Notes under the pieces: model-generated
What the model was told of the DNA's origin: nothing
Database searches by the model: none
The model's input: only the letters and a program-made list of their open reading frames with translations
NCBI GenBank assembly: GCA_920105625.2
Contig: OV050031.1
Coordinates: 2,025,501-2,089,500 of the forward strand
From: Clusia tigrina
Taxonomy: Eukaryota; Arthropoda; Insecta; Diptera; Clusiidae
Direction: 5' to 3'
Length of the DNA stretch: 64,000 bases
Part shown: positions 11,254 to 54,261 of the stretch, piece by piece
Position numbering within the stretch: position 1 is the stretch's first letter
Layout: the number at the start of each line of letters is the position of its first letter
Position numbers and translations under genes: made by a program

Positions 11254-12712
11254 TCAAATGTCCAAAAAGCCACACAATTCGAACTCTTTCAGAGTACGCT
11301 GCAGAAAGGCTCGATATTTTGGGTTCTCCACGTTCTGGCGCCTTAATTTGTCACCTTCTTCGGTGCGTGTGAATAAGTTCTCCACATCTTCGACGGCTTC
11401 CGCTTCCATAAATATAAGTGGAGTGAGGCAGGTGGCTGCTATGACACCTGATAATGATACATCTCGTTATTTGTGGCCAGGGAGCAGGAGCAATTCAAAT
11501 ATTTCCACTTACCTTGCAAACTGCTTCTGATGAGTTCGATGTTAATCTCCTTCAGCGTGGGAATGGCGCCTTCGTAGTTCAGTTTCTCTAAAGTCAGCTT
11601 CAATGTGCGGTGGTACTCGCGGACAATGAACTTGAAATGTACTTTGCGCACATTTTCGTTCAGTGAACCGAACAGAAAGTAGTTGAGATCCACTGCCGGG
11701 GATCCATAGTAAGCCAGTTGGTAATCGAGCTGTGAATGACAAATCAGAGAATTAATTTTTCAATAGTTCGTTCTCGCAAACGTCCTGGTCCTAAGAACAT
11801 ACCATGACCACGTCATCTGGCTCCCCTAGTTCGTTGTTGATGTGGAACAACAAATTGTTGATCCACAAATCGGCCAAGTTGAAGACCCGGAAGCCGTTCT
11901 CGTGCGATTCGTACATTTCAACCGAACGCTGGAGCACATTCTCCGCCAATTTGTACATCTTTTCCGTGATCTCCTCGTAGCCTTTCCAGTGGGTGAGCTC
12001 TTCGGCCACACAACGCACGTTCACGGGGAAGAAGACCAAGAAATCTTTGCGTTCAGGATTACGTGATATCGGCGCCTCCTTGAAGGTTTCCATGATTTTT
12101 GGATTTTCAGCTGCAATCACAGCGGAACAGGCGTGCAGTTTGGCCAACTTTTGCACCGTTGGTAGAACGTAGTCCAAGTTGAGCAAACGTCCTTTCTCGA
12201 AGTTTTGAAAATCGGTCACCTGCATGTCCTCCAGAATGAGGAAGGGCTCTGGCGACTCCGTGGTGTAATAGCAGGCAGGTGCTATTTTCGTGTTGTCTCC
12301 AATCGATGCGAGTAATTCCTCCACCCGTGGCAGTATTTCCTTGTAGGCTACGATTTCGCGTTTGAATAGATTGCCCTTATGTGCAATGGCGCCTTTGATG
12401 CCTTTAGGGTGGTCCTGGAGAATGGAGGAAATTAATTGTCGTAGGACACCTTTTCCCTATCCAGCTTACAACGTTCGTGCTTACCTTGACAATGACTGAG
12501 AATTTTCCAGCCACATCCTTGCGCACCAGGTTGAAGGTGGCGCGATGCATTTCGCTGGCATAACCGTTCCCTTTACCGCCATTGGTGGCACTCCTTACTA
12601 CAATGTCGCTGACTTGCAGAGTATCATCCTTGAAGTACTCTTTCAGCACATCTTGCAGGAAATCGACCGTAACCCAATCGGGCGCTTGATAGTTTGCAGG
12701 TCCAGTGCCCAT
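11254..12712 (-). CDS. EcKL-4, divergent EcKinase-like protein lacking His-Gly of HGD
   Basis: Four exons, 12712-12485, 12414-11803, 11729-11513 and 11447-11254, give 416 aa with continuous frame. Intron phases are 0, 0 and 1, and introns 1 and 2 are at positions not used elsewhere in the array: directly after the beta3 lysine (FSVIVK, Lys76) and just before LDYQLAYYGSP. The fold is clear: PDWVTVDFLQDVL, GKGNGYAS loop, FLILEDMQVTDF, KLAKLHACSAV, LDYQ metal-site Asp, GSPAVDLNYF. The catalytic loop reads FNLADLWINN instead of xxHGDxWxNN; the catalytic Asp (258) stays but His and Gly have become Leu256 and Ala257. The GENY loop is also altered (GNGY). The reading frame is intact, so it is probably a functional protein with changed or lost catalysis. 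Confidence 0.9.
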
Positions 12713-32208: not shown

Positions 32209-34744
32209 TCATTTCCAGTCCAGCAGACCGCGATTAGCCAACCATGGCATCAACTCGGACATCATCTGTACATATTTGGGATTCGCGTACATGGCTTGCT
32301 TCATTTTGGTCTCATCTTCCAACTTTGCGGCATCCTTGTCGAGCATGATCACAGGAAGAACCTTAGTAGCAACCATATAAGCTGGGAAATATGAAAGTTT
32401 TCTATAATTAATTTGTTTTAAATTTATAACTTCAGAAGTCTCAAGGGTTGGGAGGAAGGTATTTCAAATGTCAGAAAGATCGCAGCCCAGATTTTGACGA
32501 ATTCAGTCAAAGATGTTCTGTGATCAGTGTTTTGAATTGCCTTCTTTTTTTTGTTAATTTATAACATCGGAAGTCTCAAGGGTTGGGAGGAAGGTATTTG
32601 AAATGTGAGAAACATCGCAGCCCAGATTTTGACGAATTCAGTCAGAGATGTTCTGTGATCAGTGTTTTGAATTGCCTTCTTTTTTTTGTTAATTTATAAC
32701 TTCAGAAGTCTAAAGGGTTGGGAGGAAGGTATTTCAAATGTCAGAAACATCGCAGCCCAGATTTTGACGAATTCAGTCAGAGATGTTCTGTGATCAGTGT
32801 TTTGAATTGCCTTCTTTTTTTTGTTAATTTATAACTTCAGAAGTCTCAAGGGTTGGGAGGAAGGTATTTCAAATGTCAGAAACATCGCAGCCCAGATTTT
32901 GACGAATTCAGTCAGAGATGTTCTGTGATCAGTGTTTTGAATTGCCTTCTTTTTTTTGTTAATTTATAACTTCGGAAGTCTCAAGGGTTGGGAGGAAGGT
33001 ATTTGAAATGTGAGAAACATCGCAGCCCAGATTTTGACGAATTCAGTCAGACATGTTCTGTGATCAGTGTTTTGAATTGCCTTCTTTTTTTTGTTAATTT
33101 ATAACTTCAGAAGTCTCAAGGGTTGGGAGGAAGGTATTTCAAATGTCAGATACATCGCAGCCCAGATTTTGACGAATTCAGTCAGAGGTGCTCTGCGATC
33201 AGTGTTTTGATTTGCCGTTTTTTTGTTATTGGTTCCTTGTCCGTTGGAAAGTCTAGACCTATGTCGCTTGGTGAAAAGGTTATCGAAAGCCTTAATATAG
33301 TGTTTGAAAGGAATTCGTTGGAAGACTTTTTTTTTATATTAGAGTCAAACCAAAGTTGGAAACCTCCTTCATAAAATTCAACAGTCATTAATTTATTGAT
33401 TTTTCTCCCGAAATATATAATAACGCCCAAAAAATAGTCACTACGTGTTCCCCAGGTATTTGAGAGTGATGGACACTACAATTCCCTCATTTCCTCATAC
33501 CCTCATATCCACCTTTAATACTTCCCCGCCTCGGTTTGTGTGGACATATTTATATATTATATACTCACCGCTCAGGCCATTCCTTAGCAGTGCAGAATGC
33601 AAGCTCTTCAGCTTCGGTAAAGGTCGGTGATACTGCAAAAATTTCAGATTCTCCACCAATCTCTCATAGTAGAACCGCACGAAGTAGTCAAACTGCGTCA
33701 GCTTGATGTCAGGGTTGGCTGAGGATAGTATCAGGTAATATAGATCATTGGCTGGCGAACCATATTTGGTCACCTGGAAGTCAACGAATAGGGTATCTTT
33801 TATTTTGCCCTCATTATCGTATTGGAACATAACATTATCGGACCAACAGTCGCCATGATTGAGTACGTTGAATTCGCGCGGATTGACTCTGTGTCTCTCT
33901 AAGAGGCATTCAACAAGATAATCATCACTTTTGGCCTGAAAATTACCAAATAAGTGATATAAATATTTTAGAATTCCCACCACTCCATTTTCTCCTCACC
34001 AACTTTCCATAATACTCTTGCCCATTTTTCCACTTCTTCAGTTGAGCCAAAAACACGCTCGATTCGGTGAATTCCTCGTACAAATATTGGTTGTAACAAT
34101 TGTATATGCCCACGGTGAGTTCCTCATCATAACACCCGAAATGCTCCACATAACAAGCTGAAGCGGCATGAAATTCTGCCAACTTGGAGAGCGTCTGCTG
34201 CATGTGCTGCATATCGAAGCCAGTGGCACTGTTGGCATTTTTGTAATCTCGTACATGCAAATCTTCCAACAGCACATAATGCTCCTCTGTGTCCTGATCA
34301 AATTTGTACGCTTCGGGCGAGAATTTGACAGTCTTGCCAGCGTCCTTGTAGATTTGCTCCAATTTTGGTATGATGGTGTAGTAGACAAGCGTCTCTCTAG
34401 GGATGAGCCGCAACTTTAAGATCGTAATGCCAGTGAAAAAGTTGTCATTCTGGCCTTTTAGCACGAAGGATACGGTGCTCGTGCTCCCATCTGCGGTAAA
34501 TTAAGCGTTTGTTACTAAGTAAGTAAGTAAGTGTTAAGCTGACCTTACCTTTCAGTTCCACCTCGGCCTTAATGCGAAACATCAGCGACAAATTGCTATT
34601 TCCAGTAGTCGAGCCTTGTTCTATGTTGACCGTGAGTATTTTCTCATAGTCCCCCAGAGAGGTGTGCACAGCTCGGTCGAGGGTCATGTTTTGCAGCCAG
34701 GCGAATGGACTGCAAGCATCCTCGCCATTTGCTAATCGTGCCAT
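32209..34744 (-). CDS. EcKL-8, EcKinase-like protein with degenerate nucleotide loop
   Basis: Four exons, 34744-34549, 34490-34000, 33935-33569 and 32381-32209 (phases 1, 0, 1), give 408 aa. The last intron is 1187 bp, against 55-95 bp elsewhere in the array, because it is filled by a 135-bp satellite. The C-lobe is standard: LLEDLHVRDYKNAN, LAEFHAASACY, catalytic HGDCWSDN (HGD 256-258), VDFQVTKYGSPANDLYYL, ANRGLLDWK at the end. The N-lobe is unusual: the family's PxWhxxxxFxxxL opening is replaced by CSPFAWLQNM, and the GENY loop by GNSNLS; the lysine in SFVLKGQ is kept. Catalysis may therefore be altered. Belongs with EcKL-9 to 13. Confidence 0.9.
32421..33225. repeat. 135-bp satellite inside EcKL-8 intron 3, about 6 copies
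   Basis: GGAGGAAGGT recurs at 32451, 32586, 32721, 32856, 32991 and 33126, an exact 135-bp period. Copies differ by only a few bases; the last is the most diverged. The units are entirely intronic. Confidence 0.95.
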
Positions 34745-38289: not shown

Positions 38290-39734
38290 TCAGTCCAGTG
38301 CTCCGCGATGATGCAACCACGGTAAAATTGCCTCAATGTGCTTCTTGTATCTGGCATTGGAGAACATGAGCTTTTTGAAGCTGTTGCCAGCGTCGCTGTC
38401 GCTAAGGAAGTTGTCTATGGAGGCATTTTCGTTCGGTTCCAGTAGAAGGGCCCCCATGACGCTCGTCACTGTCCAGTAGCCTAGAAAATAGACGACAATT
38501 AAATTACCAAGAAAATTTTACCTTCTTTTGTAAGTATTTACCCCAGACGCCGTATTTGTACAAATCGATGTGGATGTCCTTCAGAGTGGGGATCTTTTTG
38601 GGATATTTCAACAGGGTCAAACATTCGCTTAGGTTGTCGTGGTAGTATTTGATTAAGTAATCGAACTGTTTCAACTTCAATTCCAACTTGGGGGAGGACA
38701 GTATGAAGTACAGCAGGTCCTGGGCTGGCGTGCCATATTTCGATATTTGGTAGTCCACAAAATAGGTTTCTTTCACATTTCCCTGCTCGTCATATTGGAA
38801 CATAATATTGTTAGTCCAACAGTCGCCGTGATTCAGTACATTGAACTCCTCTGGATTCGGATTCCCCATTTTGTACAGTTCATCCACCACCTTCTTTTGC
38901 AAGTTTTCCTGGTGAAGTTGAAAGAAATTGTAAAACGAAGGAAAAGAAAGTCAATTTTATTCTGTATTTCTCCACTAAACGTCATGCATACCACACTCTT
39001 AACATAAGATTCATGTCCCTCGTAGAATTTCATGCACTTCTCGAACGCTTTCCAGGTACTCTCGTGCATTTGGTCTACAATGGGACGATGCAAATCCGTG
39101 TAGAAGCCAACAGTGAAAATGGGTGCATACACGCCTTTAGTTTGCACCCGTGTCGCTGAGGCGGCATGCCACTGAGCCAACTTCTTTAAAACGCATTTTG
39201 TGTGCTCCAAGTCGAGCCCTTCCAAGCGATTGGCATTCTTGAAGCCCCGCGGACGTAAGTCTTCGAGCAGCACAGCATCCTCGCTGATCGGCAACTTGTA
39301 GCATTGCGGACCGAATTGCACCTCCAGACCCACCTCGCGGTACATGCTCTCCAACTCCGGCACCAATTCCAGGTACATGGTGTTTTCGACCTCGAATATG
39401 TTGAATTCCTTCGACATCTCGGTCATGATGCCGCTTTGGATGGGCACTTTCATCATATATGTCAGCGATTTCGTGTCACCAGCTGCGGAATACTGAGCGT
39501 ACTTTCACCGATACTTGGTAATTAATATTACTTACACTCCAAGTCGACGTCTATTTCCACTCGCAGCATTATCGTCGCATAGTTCTCGCCCGCAGTCAGA
39601 GCAGGACGCGCTTTAAAGTTCCGTATTTGCTTGTAGCCCGCCACGTGCTCCTTCAACAGGTCGTGAAAAACCGCGCCATCTATCCACTTGGGCAACAGGG
39701 GGCCCGCTTCCGCATTTGCTGGCTCTGCCGACAT
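38290..39734 (-). CDS. EcKL-9, EcKinase/CHK-like kinase
   Basis: Four exons, 39734-39536, 39482-38992, 38908-38542 and 38480-38290 (phases 1, 0, 1), encode 415 aa. Motifs: LPKWIDGAVFHDLL, AGENYATIMLR loop, TYMMKVPIQSG, AVLLEDLRPRGFKNANRLEG, LAQWHAASATR, catalytic HGDCWTNN (HGD 257-259), VDYQISKYGTPAQDLLYF, and the tail LPWLHHRGALD. The first splice junction makes a Ser instead of the usual Asp/Gly codon. Very close to EcKL-10 (RPRGFKNANRLEGLD, PWLHxRGAL), so the two are a recent tandem pair. Confidence 0.94.
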
Positions 39735-40497
39735 ATCTGTGCCGATGTGCGCGTAGTGTGCGAATGAGCGACCTTAAACTTGAACGAACTGTTGCGCTCG
39801 ACTCTCGGCGCTGAACTAAACTGTTTGATTTGGCAACTCGTCTCTGCTGTGTTTTGTATTCTTATTTACACTTCAATTGAAATTTGTTTTGGCCTTTTGT
39901 TTGCTTTTTTTGTTGGTTTTTCGCGCTGGTCAATTATTGAACAAAACTGGAATTCTGGTTAAACTGCGCCGAGAGGGAAACTTTACACCAACTACAATTG
40001 TGAAATAGCTGCTGGCGCATGGCGTGGAGCGGCGCGGAGCTTTCTGCTGAAGCTTTTGTGAATTTACGCTCGTCATTAGTCACTTGTCGCGACCAGCGCT
40101 CGTGCAGGCGCAGTCAAGTCGTAGATTTTGAGAAAATTCCACTAATATCCCCTCCCACTCCCTGGCCTATTTCTATTCTTCCCATGGACTTTCATTTGCC
40201 GACTGACTGCTGAGTTCATTTCTCCGTCTCCGTAGTGGGACACTCAATTATCAATTAATTTCGAATAAATACACAATGAATTTATGATAAGAGTGTGGAC
40301 ATGTAAAAATAGTTTAGAGACAACACAATCAGGGGCAGAAGCCGAAACCTTCATTCATAAGAACAGGACAGATAATCACAGTTCATCCGTTGGGCATTCC
40401 TGGTTAACAACTTCCTGCACCTACAAATTTGCTATCTCGGCTAGAAATCGTAACACGCCTCACCAATTGAATCAATGCAAAGAAATCATTTTGAACT

Positions 40498-40503
40498 TTT
40501 ATT
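40498..40503 (-). terminator. poly(A) signal of EcKL-10
   Basis: AATAAA on the minus strand 14 nt after the EcKL-10 stop codon; implies a very short 3' UTR. The spacer 39735-40497 otherwise shows nothing. Confidence 0.45.
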
Positions 40504-40516
40504 ATCAAATATATTT

Positions 40517-41960
40517 TCACAGCTCGAGGGCGCCGCGGTTGTGCAGCCACGGCATTACGGCTTCGATGTGCTTCCGATATCTGGCATTTGAGTACATGAG
40601 CACTTTTAAGTCGGCCGCTTGCGTTTGGTCGTTGTCCACAAAATTGTCATAAGTAGCGATGTCGGTGGGATCCAGTAAAACCGCCGACATAACTCCCGTA
40701 GCTGTAATATAACCTGAAATAACGGAAGTATCAAAATTAGTGACTCCGTTTCTGGCTCTCCCAGACAGTGTTCCACCTACCCATTAAGCCGTATTTGTAC
40801 AAAGCGATGTGGATGTCCTTCAAAGTGGGCAGTTTTTTGGTGTACTTCAGCAGCGTCAGGTTCTCAATGAGGTTTTCGTGGTAGAATTTAATGAAGTATT
40901 CAAATTGCTTCAATTTCACTTCGTACGCGGTGGAAGAGAGAAGGAAGTAGAGCAAGTCAATGACCGGCGAGCCATACCTCGGCAGTTGGTAGTCCACGAA
41001 GTAGGTCTCTTTGATCTTGCCAAACGCGTCGTACTGGAACATCACATTGTTCGACCAGCAATCGCCGTGATTCAAAACGTTGAATTCATTTGGGTCCAGT
41101 TTTACGAGTTTGTAGAGTTCGTCCGTGAGCCTGGGCTGGATCTTTTCCTACATATCCAAGTAAGTATAATGCACAATAAACAGTCTTCGACACTCCCACA
41201 CTTACCACGAATCCTATGTAGTCTTCATGCCCTTTGTAGGTTTTCATGCACTGCAGCAGTGCCCCTCCCATAGCTTCACACATTTGCTTCATTATGGGCT
41301 TTTGTGTCTCGGTAAAGAATCCATAGGCATACACGTTCGGATATTTCCCTACGGTTTCCACGCGCTTCGCCGATGCCGCATGCCACTGGGCTAGCTTCTT
41401 TAAGACGCACTTAGTGTGGACCATGTCGAGACCCTCCAAGCGGTTTGCGTTTTTGAACCCCCGTGGTCGCAGATCCTCAAGCAGGACATAATTGGTTTCC
41501 TCAGGTAAGGGCAGTTTAAGGCATTGAGGGCCAAACTTGACCTCAACACCAGCCTCACGGTATATTTGCTCAAATTCTGGCACCACATCCGTATACATCC
41601 CCGTCTCAACGGCGAAAATGTTGTGGGTCTTCAAGAGTTCCTGGGCCATGGGTAGTTGGTGAGGTACTTTCAACACATACGGTACGGTTTTTGTTTTACC
41701 ATCTGTGAGCAAGGGATGTTAAATACAATTGGAGTCTTTGCTTATTCTAACTAACCTTCCAAATCCACCTCCAATTCCACACGCAATATAATGGTAGCAT
41801 AGTTCTCGCCCACGGTGAGAGCAGGATTTGCTTTAAAGCATTTGATCTGCTTATAGCCTGGAAACTTTTCTTTTATGATGTCTGCAAAAAGACTGGCTTC
41901 CAACCAGTTGGGAGCTTGAGATGGGGCTAATGAGTCACCGTTAACTTGGGTTGTGGCCAT
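40517..41960 (-). CDS. EcKL-10, EcKinase/CHK-like kinase
   Basis: Four exons, 41960-41756, 41702-41206, 41147-40781 and 40713-40517 (phases 1, 0, 1), encode 421 aa. Motifs: APNWLEASLFADII, VGENYATIILR, PYVLKVPHQLP with the lysine, FAVETGMYTDVVPEFEQIY helix C, YVLLEDLRPRGFKNAN, LAQWHAASAKR, catalytic HGDCWSNN (HGD 261-263), VDYQLPRYGSPVIDLLYF, LPWLHNRGALEL-type end (MPWLHNRGALEL). All splice sites are canonical. Sister gene of EcKL-9. No signal peptide or membrane segment, so cytosolic by expectation. Confidence 0.94.
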
Positions 41961-47280: not shown

Positions 47281-47640
47281 ACATTATTATTATTATTATT
47301 GTGTGTAGGGGATTTAAGCACCGCGACCTTTCGATCTATTGTGCCCCCCCCATCAGAGGTTCAAAGTACATCTTTGAGTCCTATCCTCTGGATAAATGTG
47401 ATGACAAGTTTTGGCTCCAGAGGTTTCACATCACTGGCAGAGCCCTGGAAAACTCCCAAGTATTTCCTGCGGGTGTGCATGAGAGCCGGACATTCTATCA
47501 ACACATGCAACGATATCTCCTCTTCCTCCATACAGAATCTGCAGGAGCCTTCCGAGGTGACCCCCATTCTCACCATATGTGATTTTAGTTTACAGTGTCC
47601 TGTGAGTAGGCCTGTCATCATCCTAGCATTATTTTTAGAG
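47281..47640 (-). mobile_element. Second 5'-truncated LINE fragment with (TAA)n tail
   Basis: Minus-strand frame 47621-47361 reads GLLTGHCKLKSHMVRMGV, then CRFCMEEEEISLHVLIEC, the same post-RNase H segment as at 44637-44975 but from a different element. The 3' side ends in (ATA/TAA)n at 47283-47300, the tail type seen in I-like LINEs. Confidence 0.82.
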
Positions 47641-47864
47641 AGATTGATGAGTGATTCATTACATTATCATGAAATCACCATGATCTGAATAAACGCAAGA
47701 TTCAAACAAATTGTGTCCAGATCATTCGATGAGCGTTTCTCTTATATGCCATTTTGTCCTGCCTAATGCTATTTGTACTTAGTATTTGGTCGTTAGTCCT
47801 GTAGTCTAATTATATCATACCTTGAGACATAAACGATGTTGTTATCGCTAATTTACATAGACTC

Positions 47865-49465: not shown

Positions 49466-50936
49466 TCAAAGATCTAGTAAGCCACGCCTATTAAGCCACG
49501 TCAATACTGTTCCAGCATGTGCCTTGTACCGAGGGTTCAGGTACATGTCTCTGAAGAACACCACGGATTCGTCAGTTGCAGCTGTGAATATATCCAAAGT
49601 GGCATTTTCACTCGGCTCCAGCAGACATATCGTGGTCACACCAATAAGTGTAGCGAAACCTATGACCAGGACATATTTGTAATATTTTTAGGGATTTCAA
49701 GAGCTTCTCTTACCCCAATAGCCGTAATTCAACAGGCTGGTATGCAGCTCCTTTAGAGTGGGCACCTTTCCTGTGTATTTCAACAAACTTAAGCTCTCGA
49801 CCAAATTCTCATGATAGTACTTAATGAAGCAATCGAACTGCTCCACTTTTATGTCCAACTGCGTGGAGGACAAAATGAAGTAATACAAATCCTGTGCGGG
49901 TGGACCGTATTTGCAGGTTTGAAAGTCAATTAGCAGAGTCTCCTGAATATTACCCTCGGCGTCATATTGGAACATGATGTTGTTCACCCAATTATCGCCA
50001 TGGTTCAAGACATTAAACTCAGCGGGATCAATTGGGTTGTGGGATATGGCAACCGAGACGAAGTTGTCGATCAGTAGTTGCTGAATGGGAGTGAGTAGCT
50101 TAAGTAGTGAATGGAATTCGTGCGAACAATATTTTGCATGACTTACCATCTTCTGCTCATACTCCTCGTGTCCTTCATATTCACGTATACAGTTCATGAA
50201 TTGTGGCACTGAAGTTTTACCCATGTCGTCGAAAATGACTTTCGACTTCTCGGTGTACAAGGTGTCGTTAAACATATCGGGGTAGGCTCCTTTCAATTCG
50301 ACTTGCTTCACGGAAGCAGCGTGGAACTGCGCTAACTTCCGGAGCACACTTTTTGTGTGGGCCATGTCCAACCCCACAAGACGATCAGCATTTCTATATC
50401 CCTGCTTGGACAGGTCTTCCAGCAGCACATATTCACAGCTGGGGGAATTTTTTAGATTGTACGATTTGGGTGCGAACACCAAGTCGCAGCCAACATCTTT
50501 ATACATGCGCTCGAATTGCGGCAGGTACTCGGTGTACATGCTTCCTTCCTTTGGGAAGAAGTCCCAGATGGCCAGTATGTCATCCGCATTATTGGAAACG
50601 GGTGGTATCTTCAACATATAGGAGGTGTTTTCCTTGTTACCATCTGCGAGTAAAAATGGAAAAATTTTGTGGCTAAATCTGCATTCTAATTATTGAGGTA
50701 AAAAGCCACCCACCTTTGAGCTCCACCTCGATTTCCACTCTCAACAACACTGACAAATAATTGTCGCCAGCTTTTGTTGCCGGAACTGCACTTATTTTGG
50801 AAAATTTCGAAAAGCCTTTCACCTGCTCCGCTACAACATCAACAAAGTGAGCCTCATCCACCCAATCAGGCACGCTTGATGTAGGTGCTTTTTGTGGGGA
50901 TGCGCTCCCGCTGTGAAGATCAGAATGGAAATGCAT
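49466..50936 (-). other. EcKL-12 kinase module 3 (C-terminal)
   Basis: Exons 50910-50714, 50643-50147, 50080-49714 and 49659-49466. If separate it could start at ATG 50936 (MHFHSDLH), but that ATG lies in the module 2/3 intron. Motifs: VPDWVDEAHFVDVV, AGDNYLSVLLR (GDNY in place of GENY), SYMLKIPPVSN, YVLLEDLSKQGYRNADRLVG, LAQFHAASVKQ, HGDNWVNN, IDFQTCKYGPPAQDLYYF, and the ordinary C-terminus NRRGLLDL. The short intron 50146-50081 is open in frame; I remove it because GTAAGT and CATTCAG borders match the phase-0 intron of all relatives. Confidence 0.92.
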
Positions 50937-53900
50937 TTGAAATGGAAACCTGAGTGGTCTAAGTCGGTGCCATTAAAAGCTGACTTCCTCAGTGTCCTTA
51001 CGTACCTTTTTGGTTCAAGGTGCTCTGGGTCTAGTAAACCACGTCTGTTTAGCCACGTCAATATAGCACTGGCATGGTTGCAGTACTGGGGGTGTGCGTA
51101 CATTTCTGTAGTGTCCTTGTGAGCTTTATCTTTGGTATCCAGGAACACAGCTGGCAGCACTTTTGCGACCGTGTAGAAACCTGATCATAATTTTTTAGCT
51201 AGAATTAAAATATTTTTGAGTAAAATGAACAGATATACCCCAAGTGCCATAGTGCAATAAGTCCTGATGCAGCTGCTTTAACGTGGGTATATCTTTGGGA
51301 TAGTTCAGCAACACCAAATTCCTGACCAGATTATCATGGTAAAAGCGCACCAAGGAGTCAAAGTGTTCCAGCTTCAGGTCCAAACTAGGTGACGACAGCA
51401 GGAAGTAATACAGATCGTGTGCCGGTGAGCCGTACTTGGCCAGTTGGTAGTCAACGAAGTAGGTGCTCTTAACTTTGCCATCATCATCGTATTGGAACAT
51501 GATGTTGTCGGTCCAACAATCGCCATGATTCAACACATTGAAACCGCTCTCGTCAATTTCGTTGACTGCGACCATGATATCACAGTACAGATCTTTATGC
51601 TGGGCCTGTACAAATTTGAAAACAGTACTTGAATGTGTTCTCTCTTTAAGAGGATGCTCAACCTACGATTTTCTGCACGTACTCCTGACTGCCTTCATGA
51701 GACTGTACGGTCTCAAAGAATATGTCAAAGAAGTCGTTGCGCTGCTTCTCCACCAATGCCACGAATTCTGGAGCAAACTCATTTTTGGAAAATATCTTCA
51801 GGGATGTGCTATTCGCGGCAGAGAAACACGCCGACACAGCATGCAATTCTGCCAGCTTGGCAAGTACACATTTGGTGTGCTCCATGTCCAATCCACTTAA
51901 GGTGTGGGCATGTTTTGCCCCATTTACGCACAGATTTTCCAGGAGGCAACTATCGTTGTGAATTTCTGTGGATAAGTTGAAACTCTTCGGGCCGAATGTG
52001 ACTCTGGAGCCAGCGTCGCTGTACATCTGCTCAAATTGTGGCAAAAATTCAGTGTAAAACTCTTTCTCCCTGGTGTACTTGGTTAGAAGGTTCTTCAAAG
52101 CCTCCGGAGCCACTTTCAGTATATAAGATTGAGACTCGGTGGTGCCAGCTGGAAGAGAATTTGTTGTTAGGAAGAGAATTAGATGTCATCTTTCAACATT
52201 AAAGCCATTTTTGATACCTTCGAGCTCTACTTCAATGTCCAGTTGCAGCAGTGGGGTAGCAATGCTACTGTCGATGCTCCTTGTTTTAGGCACCTCCACG
52301 TAGTTGAATTTTTTTATCCCTCTGAAGTTGCCAATGTGGTTCCTTAGTATGTCAGCGAAGTGCTGTTCAGTGACCCAATCGGGAATTGCGTTTAGTGGAG
52401 CGGTTCTGTCCTCTGATATGAGATCGTCTTCAGGCAATTCGACCTCGACTGCTTCCTGCTCACTGTAATAACTCATTTTAGTTAAAGGACTTTTTTAATT
52501 AGAGGAGTTATATTCACCTGTCTTCCTGGTGGTCCTCTGGTATCTTTACCTCGGCTGCTTCCTGCTCACTGTAATAACTCATTTTAGTTAAAGGATTATT
52601 TTAAATAGAGGAGTTATATTCACCTGTCTTCCTGGTGGTCCTCTGGTATCTTTACCTCGACTGTTGCCTCCACCTGCACACTGTGATTTGTAATTTAAGG
52701 AAGAGGGTTTTTTACTGATATCAATTTTATTCACCTGGCTTCCAGTAGTCCCCGATTGTACAACCAGGGCAGGATTTCGCTGATGTACTCAATATATCTC
52801 TCGCTGGTGAATAAGTTGTTCTTGAACGCCACTCCCCCCTCATTGTCCGACAAGAAATTCTCAAAGTTGGCATTCTTCGTGTTCTCCAACAGCACAACTG
52901 GCAGCGTTATAATGGTGGGGAAGGCGGCAAAGACCCCATACTTGAATAGTTGTGTGTGCAGTTCGCGTAAAGTCGGCACCTTTTTTGAATATTGCAGCAA
53001 TTTCAAGTTCGCGATAAGATTGTCGTGATAGTAGCGTATAAAGTAATCAAAGCGTTTCAGTTTGTGCTCAATGTTGGTCGACGTTAGCAGGAAGTAATAC
53101 AAGTCCTGCGCTGGCGACCCGTATTTCGTGCACTGGAAGTCCACAAGCTGAGCGTCTAAGACGTGACCGTCGGCCGCAGTTTGAAAGAGCACATTGTTGG
53201 TCCAGCAATCGCCGTGGTTTAGCACATTAAACTCCTCCGGATTGCAGCTTACTGCACTCATGAATTCCTCGGTGAGCTTTTCAAAATAAGCGCTCTGCAA
53301 TAAAGTAAATAAATGAGTTGACGGGAGCCCACTCCTTACTCAGTCACTTACCACTGGCTCGTAGTACTTATCGCCATCTCGATATCTTTTGATATTCTCC
53401 AGGAATAAAGTTTTGAAGGACTTCAGCATGGTTTCTATTACCGCGCCACCGCTTTTGCCGAACAAACCGTTCATGAGCATATCGGAAAATGGTCCTCTTG
53501 TGGCCACACGATACGCAGAAGCGGCATGCAGCTGCGCCAACTTCCTCAAAACCCACTCAGTCTGCTCCACATTCAAGCCAGCCAAACGGTCAGCGTTTTT
53601 GAAACCAAGCGGTCCCAAATCTTTCAATAGAACATTGGCACATTCGGGATCCTTGATGAATTTATACGATTTAGGCGCGAGGCAGATGTCCGCTCCAGCA
53701 GCCTTGTACAGTGCCTCTAGCTCGGGTATAACATCGCAGTACACATTATTCTCCATGGCGAAAATATTCGTCATCATACCACCGAAGTCGTCCTTCAGTG
53801 CCGGCGTGTCGTGTGGCACCTTCAACATGTAAGACACATGCTGAGTGGTCTTATCTGAAACAACATTTGCATTAAGTCTAATTTACAATACACGGGTGCC

Positions 53901-54261
53901 GAGACAGACCTTTCAGTTCTATGTCAATGCCTACGCGCAGCATAAGCGTAGCGTAATTTTCGCCCGCGCTCATCGCTGGATACGCCTTGAAACTTTGTAT
54001 GCGCTCAAAGTGGGGACACTCTGAGCGGAGTATATCAATGAAGTGCTCTTCGTTGACCCAAGCGGGCACGCGACGTGTGTCTATTTGCGCAGTTTCAACC
54101 TTGTCCGGCACAACCAAGTCCGGACTTAGTACGTTGCTGGCGGCAGCCACAGAAGCGTTCCGTGTGACCTGGCTGCCATTTCTGTACTGAAAGTCTTTGC
54201 CCGATACCACGGGCGCCACATCGTAGCTCGTTTTGTTTAGTTTCGACTTGCGCTGACCCAT
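49466..54261 (-). CDS. EcKL-12, fused protein with three EcKinase domains (about 1348 aa)
   Basis: Thirteen exons: 54261-53910, 53854-53352, 53294-52735, 52680-52624, 52568-52518, 52462-52218, 52148-51667, 51605-51239, 51180-51006, 50910-50714, 50643-50147, 50080-49714, 49659-49466. They total 4047 nt, in frame throughout. Domain 1 covers about residues 66-470, a linker 472-507, domain 2 about 520-928, domain 3 about 945-1348. Each has its own HGD loop (312-314, 777-779, 1189-1191). The module 2/3 join is strong: module 2 has no stop, and AAAAG|GTACGTAAG to TTCACAG|CGGG runs in frame across a 95-bp intron with no room for a promoter. The module 1/2 join is weaker because the exon can also end at a TGA overlapping its donor. 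The start ATG 54261 (MGQRKSK) is the first in frame and fits N-myristoylation. Alternative: two or three separate kinases. Confidence 0.7.
51006..52476 (-). other. EcKL-12 kinase module 2 (middle, degenerate N-lobe)
   Basis: Exons 52462-52218, 52148-51667, 51605-51239 and 51180-51006. If translated alone it would start at ATG 52476 (MSYYSEQEAVEV). The catalytic loop HGDCWTDN and VDYQLAKYGSPAHDLYYF are intact, but where relatives have xGENYxTxxLR it reads RSIDSSIATPLLQL, and the hinge is LLENLCVNGAKHAH instead of LLEDLxxxGFKNA. After NRRGLLDPEHLEPK the frame stays open to 50831, overlapping module 3 out of frame, so a normal stop is lacking and splicing onward is needed. Confidence 0.9.
52480..52690 (-). 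repeat. Tandemly duplicated linker exon unit (106-bp period)
   Basis: The block containing GAGGAGTTATATTCACCTGT and CCTCTGGTATCTTTACCTC occurs at 52502 and again at 52608. Each copy carries an exon-like segment (52568-52518 and 52680-52624) coding VEVKIPEDHQED or AEVKIPEDHQED between TTACAG/CACAG and GTGAAT splice signals, with 54-55 bp introns. A third, partial copy forms the start of module 2 (SEQEAVEVELPEDD). Confidence 0.8.
52731..54261 (-). other. EcKL-12 kinase module 1
   Basis: Exons 54261-53910, 53854-53352 and 53294-52735. A 65-residue N-terminal extension precedes VPAWVNEEHFIDIL. Motifs: AGENYATLMLR (GENY 100-103), SYMLKVPHDTP, VLLKDLGPLGFKNADRLAG (hinge Glu replaced by Lys), LAQLHAASAYR, HGDCWTNN, VDFQCTKYGSPAQDLYYF, and YNRGLLEA. 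The usual last intron is missing, so exon 3 is continuous through KYGVFAAFP. If the splice to the linker is not used, translation ends at TGA 52733-52731 after GLLEAR, giving a stand-alone kinase of 472 aa. Confidence 0.9.

Follow-up and report, generated by a model that had tools for sequence, protein, structure and literature searches.

A probable triple-module EcKL gene in the fly Clusia tigrina, with fused orthologues in other flies and a putative lipid anchor

Three EcKL kinase modules lie in a row on the minus strand of a 64,000-nucleotide (nt) stretch of Clusia tigrina DNA (assembly GCA_920105625.2, contig OV050031.1, positions 2,025,501 to 2,089,500), which as a whole is called the window below. 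The modules, named D1, D2 and D3 in the order of translation, can be read as one gene. This gene is probably the orthologue of an old D1-D2-D3 EcKL gene of flies, of which CG6834 of Drosophila melanogaster would be the D1-D3 form, and its product would be a membrane-tethered multi-module protein. The architecture and its orthologues are already in the databases as uncharacterized proteins.

Between window positions 54261 and 49466 on the minus strand, 13 predicted exons join to 4047 nt, corresponding to 1348 codons and a stop without any internal stop codon. All 12 introns are of the GT-AG type, are 54-95 nt long and agree in phase. A 13-exon gene keeping three EcKinase modules in frame had been proposed in the first-pass annotation; its 4047 nt, its 1348 amino acids (aa) and its three full-length EcKL domains were reproduced, and the junctions 52735/52680, 52624/52568, 52518/52462 and 51006/50910 that it had singled out were each found, with every coordinate, in the rebuilt gene model. 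The Pfam EcKL model (PF02958) matched the 1348-aa protein in three stretches with an E value of 1.1e-243 and 806.6 bits, against a curated cut-off of 22. A separate 411-position EcKL profile placed D1 at residues 62-474, D2 at 531-927 and D3 at 941-1348, each covering approximately profile positions 2-410; three of the eight seed sequences of this profile are the window's own modules, and the Pfam model is independent. The occurrence of three EcKL modules in frame is not due to chance. The splicing that joins them in C. tigrina is inferred from DNA.

The full triple was searched against 5.8 billion proteins, with candidates of 0.55-1.75 times the query length, a range that excludes single-domain proteins, and 61 matches were obtained. 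Sixty of them have at least two EcKL modules by profile, a number that given the length filter is no frequency among EcKLs. The earlier view that EcKLs are single-domain proteins was not upheld, as multi-module EcKLs are plentiful in the databases, with CG6834-type doubles and the triples of Stomoxys, Musca autumnalis and D. grimshawi among them. Module profiles were seeded with the modules of the window protein and of P0004, P0005, P0006, P0026 and P0042, and only assignments with a margin above 100 bits were counted. By this measure D1 is present in 46 of the 61 matches. The order D1-D3 is found in 32 of these, from Drosophila and including CG6834, and D1-D2 in eight (e.g. D. mojavensis, D. 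busckii, Zaprionus and P0046), while Cochliomyia combines D1-D2 with two modules of other kinds. The complete order D1-D2-D3, which the first-pass annotation had proposed to seek in related flies, was found in four: Stomoxys, Musca autumnalis, D. grimshawi and, with one extra module, Haematobia. The 15 matches without D1 are likewise built of several modules but belong to other EcKL lineages, and some of their joints are probably false. As far as annotated and predicted proteins go, D1 is fused with D2 or D3 in calyptrate flies, in Drosophila and in C. tigrina.

The triples of Stomoxys calcitrans (P0004), Musca autumnalis (P0005) and D. grimshawi (P0006) resemble the window protein in module order, in an MGxxxSK start and in a length of 1303-1374 aa, at 40-42% overall identity. 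CG6834-type doubles (P0026 and relatives, approximately 890 aa) share D1 and D3 in the same order, the MGxxxSK start and a short linker, but are devoid of D2, whereas D2 is present in the window protein, whose acidic linker is longer and contains a duplicated mini-exon. The D. melanogaster double carries the database label RE03989p, presumably a cDNA clone name. We take CG6830 to be a sister of CG6834 that also has two modules, in keeping with the paralogous D1-D3 proteins seen among the 61 matches. In P0046 a D1-D2 reading frame of 909 aa runs unbroken along a contig of 3712 nt, which suggests that this contig is an RNA transcript. All annotated Drosophila proteins found miss either D2 or D3, D. 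grimshawi excepted. The D1 modules of the D. arizonae (D1-D3) and D. mojavensis (D1-D2) proteins are only 78.0% identical, against 86.6% between D. mojavensis and D. navojoa. The two proteins are therefore probably paralogues, and isoforms of one gene are unlikely. The D1-D3 and D1-D2 proteins of the repleta group are consistent with paralogues that have undergone complementary module losses, although annotation gaps may also have produced these differences.

Phylogenetic trees were built from the individual modules. Eighty modules, taken from the window triple, 12 neighbouring EcKL modules and 28 of the 61 proteins, were reduced to 63 by removal of 17 long-branched or distant rows. Clades of D1 (support 100/100), D3 (100/99) and D2 (91/60) were recovered; the window D1 and D3 fall firmly in the first two, and the window D2 groups only weakly with the third. 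On this module-by-module grouping, descent of the window gene from the old fly triple appears well supported. Recent triplication in this lineage was tried as an origin; the three window modules as one clade were rejected (approximately unbiased test, p-AU 3e-5), as were D2 and D3 as sisters (p-AU 0.010), and a triplication in this lineage is therefore not the origin. A second tree of 106 rows included 43 modules hand-picked from the best 120 of 314 matches to the D3 profile; that search scored only the 7996 candidates sharing most words and, being centred on D3, could miss lone D1 or D2 modules. The D3 clade took in five of the 43: P0186 from Cochliomyia, P0183 from D. willistoni and three short or partial sequences, P0184, P0241 and P0281. 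P0182 of D. guanche, judged by eye to be a fragmentary D1-D3 protein, was placed with D1. The other 37 lay outside all three clades, the tephritid and Teleopsis ones included, which is no proof that those families are without the gene. An unfused D3 thus exists but looks rare.

Not all multi-module database proteins proved to be relatives in full. The fourth module of Haematobia, the third and fourth of Cochliomyia and the modules of Lucilia P0003 were considered as extra-module relatives and rejected, as none of them lies in the D1-D3 clades; they branch next to single-gene or other EcKLs. The linker ahead of the fourth Haematobia module is 153 aa long, and several such linkers resemble translated intergenic DNA. 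In our judgement the extra modules of the four- and five-module proteins are probably false fusions, and EcKL arrays seem to yield real and false fusions alike in automatic annotation.

The linker from D1 to the next module has 16-29 aa in the 11 D1-bearing relatives listed and is alike among the four calyptrate flies. In the Stomoxys calcitrans, Musca autumnalis and D. grimshawi triples the D1-D2 linker has 21-23 aa, against 56 in the window protein. The greater length is due to exons 4 and 5, which are mini-exon copies within a 106-bp tandem repeat (2.1 copies, 95%). Subtraction of these exons (19 and 17 residues) leaves a linker of the usual size, 20 aa. The last 36 nt of the two exons are identical and their two introns differ at 3 of 55 positions; this difference between mini-exon and intron is too small to claim selection.

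The joints between the modules were assessed with a splice-site matrix, which is local and small and was made from introns of homology models of the local EcKL genes, a few of them doubtful. At the D2-D3 joint the donor AAG/GTACGT (the slash marks the exon end) scores as high as or higher than 85% of 39 other local EcKL introns, and only 0.1-0.6% of the GTs in the window are as good. The acceptor is middling, at the 41st percentile, with 6% of window AGs scoring as high. Past the last exon of D2 the frame runs for 58 codons without a stop, whereas in all 12 neighbouring EcKL modules a stop follows the domain after 0-9 codons. The fusion put forward in the first-pass annotation is well supported by the module-by-module orthology to annotated fused proteins, by the short linkers of the orthologues and by the missing stop after D2.

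Several observations weigh against a single triple gene, most of them at the D1-D2 joint. The three linker donors CAG/GTGAAT are at the 8th percentile of the 39 introns, with 26-28% of window GTs scoring as high, and the D1-D2 acceptors are at the 21st percentile, with 17-21% of window AGs as high. Without splicing, D1 ends in LLEAR followed by TGA, with AATAAA directly after, and an in-frame ATG lies 22 codons ahead of both the D2 start and the D3 start used in the stop-codon comparison. Among the 46 D1-bearing matches one, P0059 from Stomoxys, has D1 alone. The window D2 is long-branched (0.95 against 0.44 and 0.47 for the other two modules) and groups only weakly with the other D2 modules, at the 91/60 given above; the alternative of the window D2 within D3 is not rejected (p-AU 0.26). 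Finally, annotation alone is imperfect evidence because the database models of the family include probable false fusions. The sequence CAG/GTGAAT matches the general donor consensus at 8 of 9 positions. Because of this match, the small matrix and the doubtful models, a weak D1-D2 score does not amount to an absent site. Nevertheless, owing to the weak sites, the unspliced TGA and AATAAA and the in-frame ATGs, the D1-D2 joint rests mainly on the comparison with relatives.

These observations lead to the question whether products other than the triple are made. A D1-only product is possible because the weak D1-D2 donor adjoins TGA and AATAAA, and both forms could be produced, a D1-only protein of 472 aa through retention of intron 3 or polyadenylation within it and the triple when the linker is spliced, with the linker length varied by skipping of mini-exons 4 and 5. 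Retention of intron 3, 4 or 5 would end the protein at 472, 491 or 508 aa, and skipping of exon 4, exon 5 or both keeps the frame (1329, 1331 and 1312 aa); the D1-only paralogue of Stomoxys would fit as well. However, AATAAA may occur by chance in an AT-rich intron and in-frame stops after GTGA donors are common, and we regard the production of both forms as rather unlikely. Three separate tandem genes, with the triple a chaining artefact of short spacers and available GT-AG sites, appear improbable. They would agree with the 12 other EcKL modules of the window, which look like individual genes, with the weak sites, stop and ATGs just described and with the false-looking fusions of the family, yet they leave unexplained the open frame and strong donor after D2, the same modules fused in the same order with short linkers in several flies, and the unbroken D1-D2 frame of P0046. 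Even less credible are two genes, one for D1 by itself and one for a fused D2-D3 that would begin at the ATG ahead of D2. This pair would suit the strong D2-D3 donor and the weak D1-D2 sites, but all D1-bearing matches except P0059, 45 of 46, have D1 joined to D2 or D3, and D2-D3 without D1 was assigned to none of the 61 at margins above 100 bits.

If the modules do form one gene, tandem EcKL genes probably became one when splicing bypassed the stop codons in the upstream copies. Such an origin would fit the donor at the end of D1, which adjoins TGA.

The protein is predicted to start with MGQRKSKLNKTSYDVAPVVS, and the Stomoxys protein starts with MGLRSSKHSPKSYDIAPVVS. An MGxxx[ST] start was found in 45 of 46 D1-bearing proteins (the window protein and 45 of the 46 D1-bearing matches). 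In the exception, P0019, MGxxxSK stands at residue 53, and its annotated start is probably wrong. The 46th match, P0059, which is outside this count, likewise opens with MGLRNSK; this D1-only EcKL has a low-complexity N-terminal stretch of approximately 350 aa. None of the 15 remaining multi-module matches and none of 120 shorter EcKL matches has such a start, although a few of the latter are partial and may miss their true start. Residues 2, 6 and 7 are constant among the D1-bearing starts and residues 3-5 vary, in counts that are not phylogenetically independent. A glycine at position 2, a small residue at 6 and a basic residue at 7 make up the Src-like N-myristoylation pattern. MGQRKSK of the window protein fits MGxxx[ST], with Gly2, a small residue at 6 and a basic one at 7. 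Judging from the conservation of this motif, Gly2 would most likely carry an N-myristoyl group.

All three window modules contain HGDxWxxN and D[FY]Q as well as the beta-3 lysine and the helix-C glutamate, both of which have known roles in kinases. D1 and D3 retain the complete set, with a GENY/GDNY loop, the lysine, the helix-C glutamate, a hinge with DR, HGDxWxxN and DFQ. D2 retains the lysine, the glutamate, HGDCWTDN and DYQ; its loop reads IDSSIAT and HT replaces DR/NR. The D2 modules of the three triples named above keep GDNY and NR/DR, and GDNY and the hinge arginine are kept in all eight other D2 modules compared. Because these keep the motifs and the window D2 has the longest branch, the decay of its nucleotide site looks lineage-specific. 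Among the 12 neighbour models, departures from GxN[YF] occur in n4, n6 and n8, the n6 model being doubtful there, so that such a loss is not confined to D2 within the family. The suggestion that active and inactive domains are combined in the protein therefore stands in part: in D2 the GxNY loop and hinge arginine are gone but HGDxWxxN and DYQ remain, and D1 and D3 look intact.

A structure of CG6834 was predicted from a 25-sequence alignment, with a mean predicted local distance difference test (pLDDT) of 78.4 and a predicted template modelling score of 0.52. The model has two ordered kinase-like modules; residues 1-43 (tail) and 468-481 (linker) have a pLDDT below 50, and no module interface is claimed. 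The solved structures closest in fold are those of PsiK, N-acetylhexosamine 1-kinase, methylthioribose kinase and choline kinase; their template modelling (TM) scores are low, 0.42-0.50 by target length. PsiK, methylthioribose kinase and choline kinase (TM-scores 0.44-0.50) are 11-14% identical to the model, have a single module and act on other substrates. PsiK, a 4-hydroxytryptamine kinase, was also a sequence match to a 46-residue stretch of D3 (E value 8e-4). The single-domain CHKov1 shares the Pfam domain of the window modules, with one module and no MGxxx[ST] start.

According to PMC12117438, EcKLs move phosphate from adenosine triphosphate (ATP) to hydroxyl groups of small molecules, and the single-domain BmEc22K and AgEcK2 act on ecdysteroids. 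In the same source, CG6830 was one of two among 13 EcKLs tested whose misexpression arrested development, so that the CG6834 group may act on something important. In PMC8026347, CG6834 is among antennal transcripts that changed together with a UDP-glycosyltransferase and GstE9, and passages of PMC7041797 and PMC4014434 list the gene without more. Passages of PMC13401236 are silent on several domains. Among the literature matches listed, no title or beginning of an abstract concerns multi-domain or myristoylated EcKLs; these matches do not cover the main EcKL papers (Scanlan 2022, Scanlan 2020, Scanlan and Robin 2024), and absence from print is not claimed.

Table 1. Predicted features of the triple-EcKL gene, in window positions
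Feature	Position	Strand	Basis or remark
Triple-EcKL coding region	49466..54261	-	13 exons, 4047 nt, 1348 aa; frame, phases, GT-AG, homology
N-terminal MGQRKSK, putative N-myristoylation-type signal (Gly2, Ser6, Lys7)	54241..54261	-	Conservation among D1-bearing proteins
Exon 1 (N-terminal tail, start of D1)	53910..54261	-	Gene model
Exon 2 (D1)	53352..53854	-	Gene model
Exon 3 (D1: HGDCWTNN, DFQ)	52735..53294	-	Donor CAG/GTGAAT adjoins in-frame TGA and AATAAA
Module D1, EcKL, all motifs kept	~52735..54078 (approximate)	-	Profile, tree, motifs
Exon 4, 57-nt linker mini-exon	52624..52680	-	Gene model
Exon 5, 51-nt linker mini-exon, copy of exon 4	52518..52568	-	Gene model and repeat
Tandem repeat, 106-bp unit x 2.1, 95% match, contains mini-exon and intron	52442..52663	-	
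Exon 6 (linker end, start of D2)	52218..52462	-	Gene model
Exon 7 (D2)	51667..52148	-	Gene model
Exon 8 (D2: HGDCWTDN, DYQ)	51239..51605	-	Gene model and motifs
Exon 9 (end of D2, D2-D3 linker)	51006..51180	-	Strong donor AAG/GTACGT; D2 end without stop
Module D2, EcKL, GxNY loop and hinge Arg lost	~51017..52395 (approximate)	-	Profile, tree, motifs
Exon 10 (linker end, start of D3)	50714..50910	-	Gene model
Exon 11 (D3)	50147..50643	-	Gene model
Exon 12 (D3: HGDNWVNN, DFQ)	49714..50080	-	Gene model and motifs
Exon 13 (end of D3, stop TGA)	49466..49659	-	Gene model
Module D3, EcKL, all motifs kept	~49469..50882 (approximate)	-	Profile, tree, motifs

The 12 neighbouring modules, n1-n12, form a dense tandem array between window positions 2765 and 59885, 11 of them on the minus strand and n3 on the plus strand, and one more EcKL module lies just past the right end of the window. 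In n4 (window 11257-12691) the sequence FNLADLWINN has LAD in place of the catalytic HGD, so n4 is possibly a pseudokinase. The loop of n8 (window 32212-34699) reads TGNSNLS and its hinge NS, departures much like those of the triple's D2; the last intron of this model has 1187 nt. Modules n9 and n10 (window 38293-41912) share a group with CHKov1 of D. melanogaster and EcKLs of Teleopsis (Shimodaira-Hasegawa-like approximate likelihood ratio test, 92). Eight nucleotides upstream of the start codon of the triple, an ATG at window 54269 is in another frame, and five selected plus-strand frames inside the gene, considered as antisense genes, gave no Pfam match. Downstream of the triple, window 47361-47663 has a weak match to zf-RVT, a zinc-binding region of reverse transcriptases (E value 3e-5, under the curated cut-off), perhaps a retroelement remnant. 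The ND2 sequence of the mitochondrial contig reached no more than 66% identity among the 120 of 6487 matches listed, with Amiota and hoverflies among them. Elsewhere in the genome, 66 COX1 matches were found outside the mitochondrial contig, C666, on contigs C1, C2 and C3, and five on C1 cover at least 430 of 436 profile positions; these would be many nuclear mitochondrial insertions.

With the three modules on one acylated chain, the protein would hang at the membrane by a flexible tail, myristoylated at Gly2, with its kinase modules on flexible linkers. With ATP, D1 and D3 would phosphorylate lipophilic substrates (steroids or xenobiotics) at their hydroxyl groups. D2, which in this species keeps the catalytic aspartate without the nucleotide-loop residues, might be weakly active, regulatory or a spacer. 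A wider scenario, offered tentatively, is that modules of an ancient N-myristoylated multi-kinase of Schizophora, with several small-molecule kinase sites at a membrane, disappear or degenerate independently of one another: D2 would have been lost in the melanogaster lineage, the triple would have split into complementary D1-D2 and D1-D3 paralogues in the repleta group, and D2 would be on its way to a pseudokinase here, with the weak linker splicing toggling between D1-only and triple products. The conserved multi-module form and the lipid-anchor signal raise the question why two or three kinase sites are carried on one tethered chain. If the proposed reading is true, enzymes that phosphorylate hydroxyl groups would stand in a lipid-anchored array, an arrangement new to steroid or xenobiotic metabolism.

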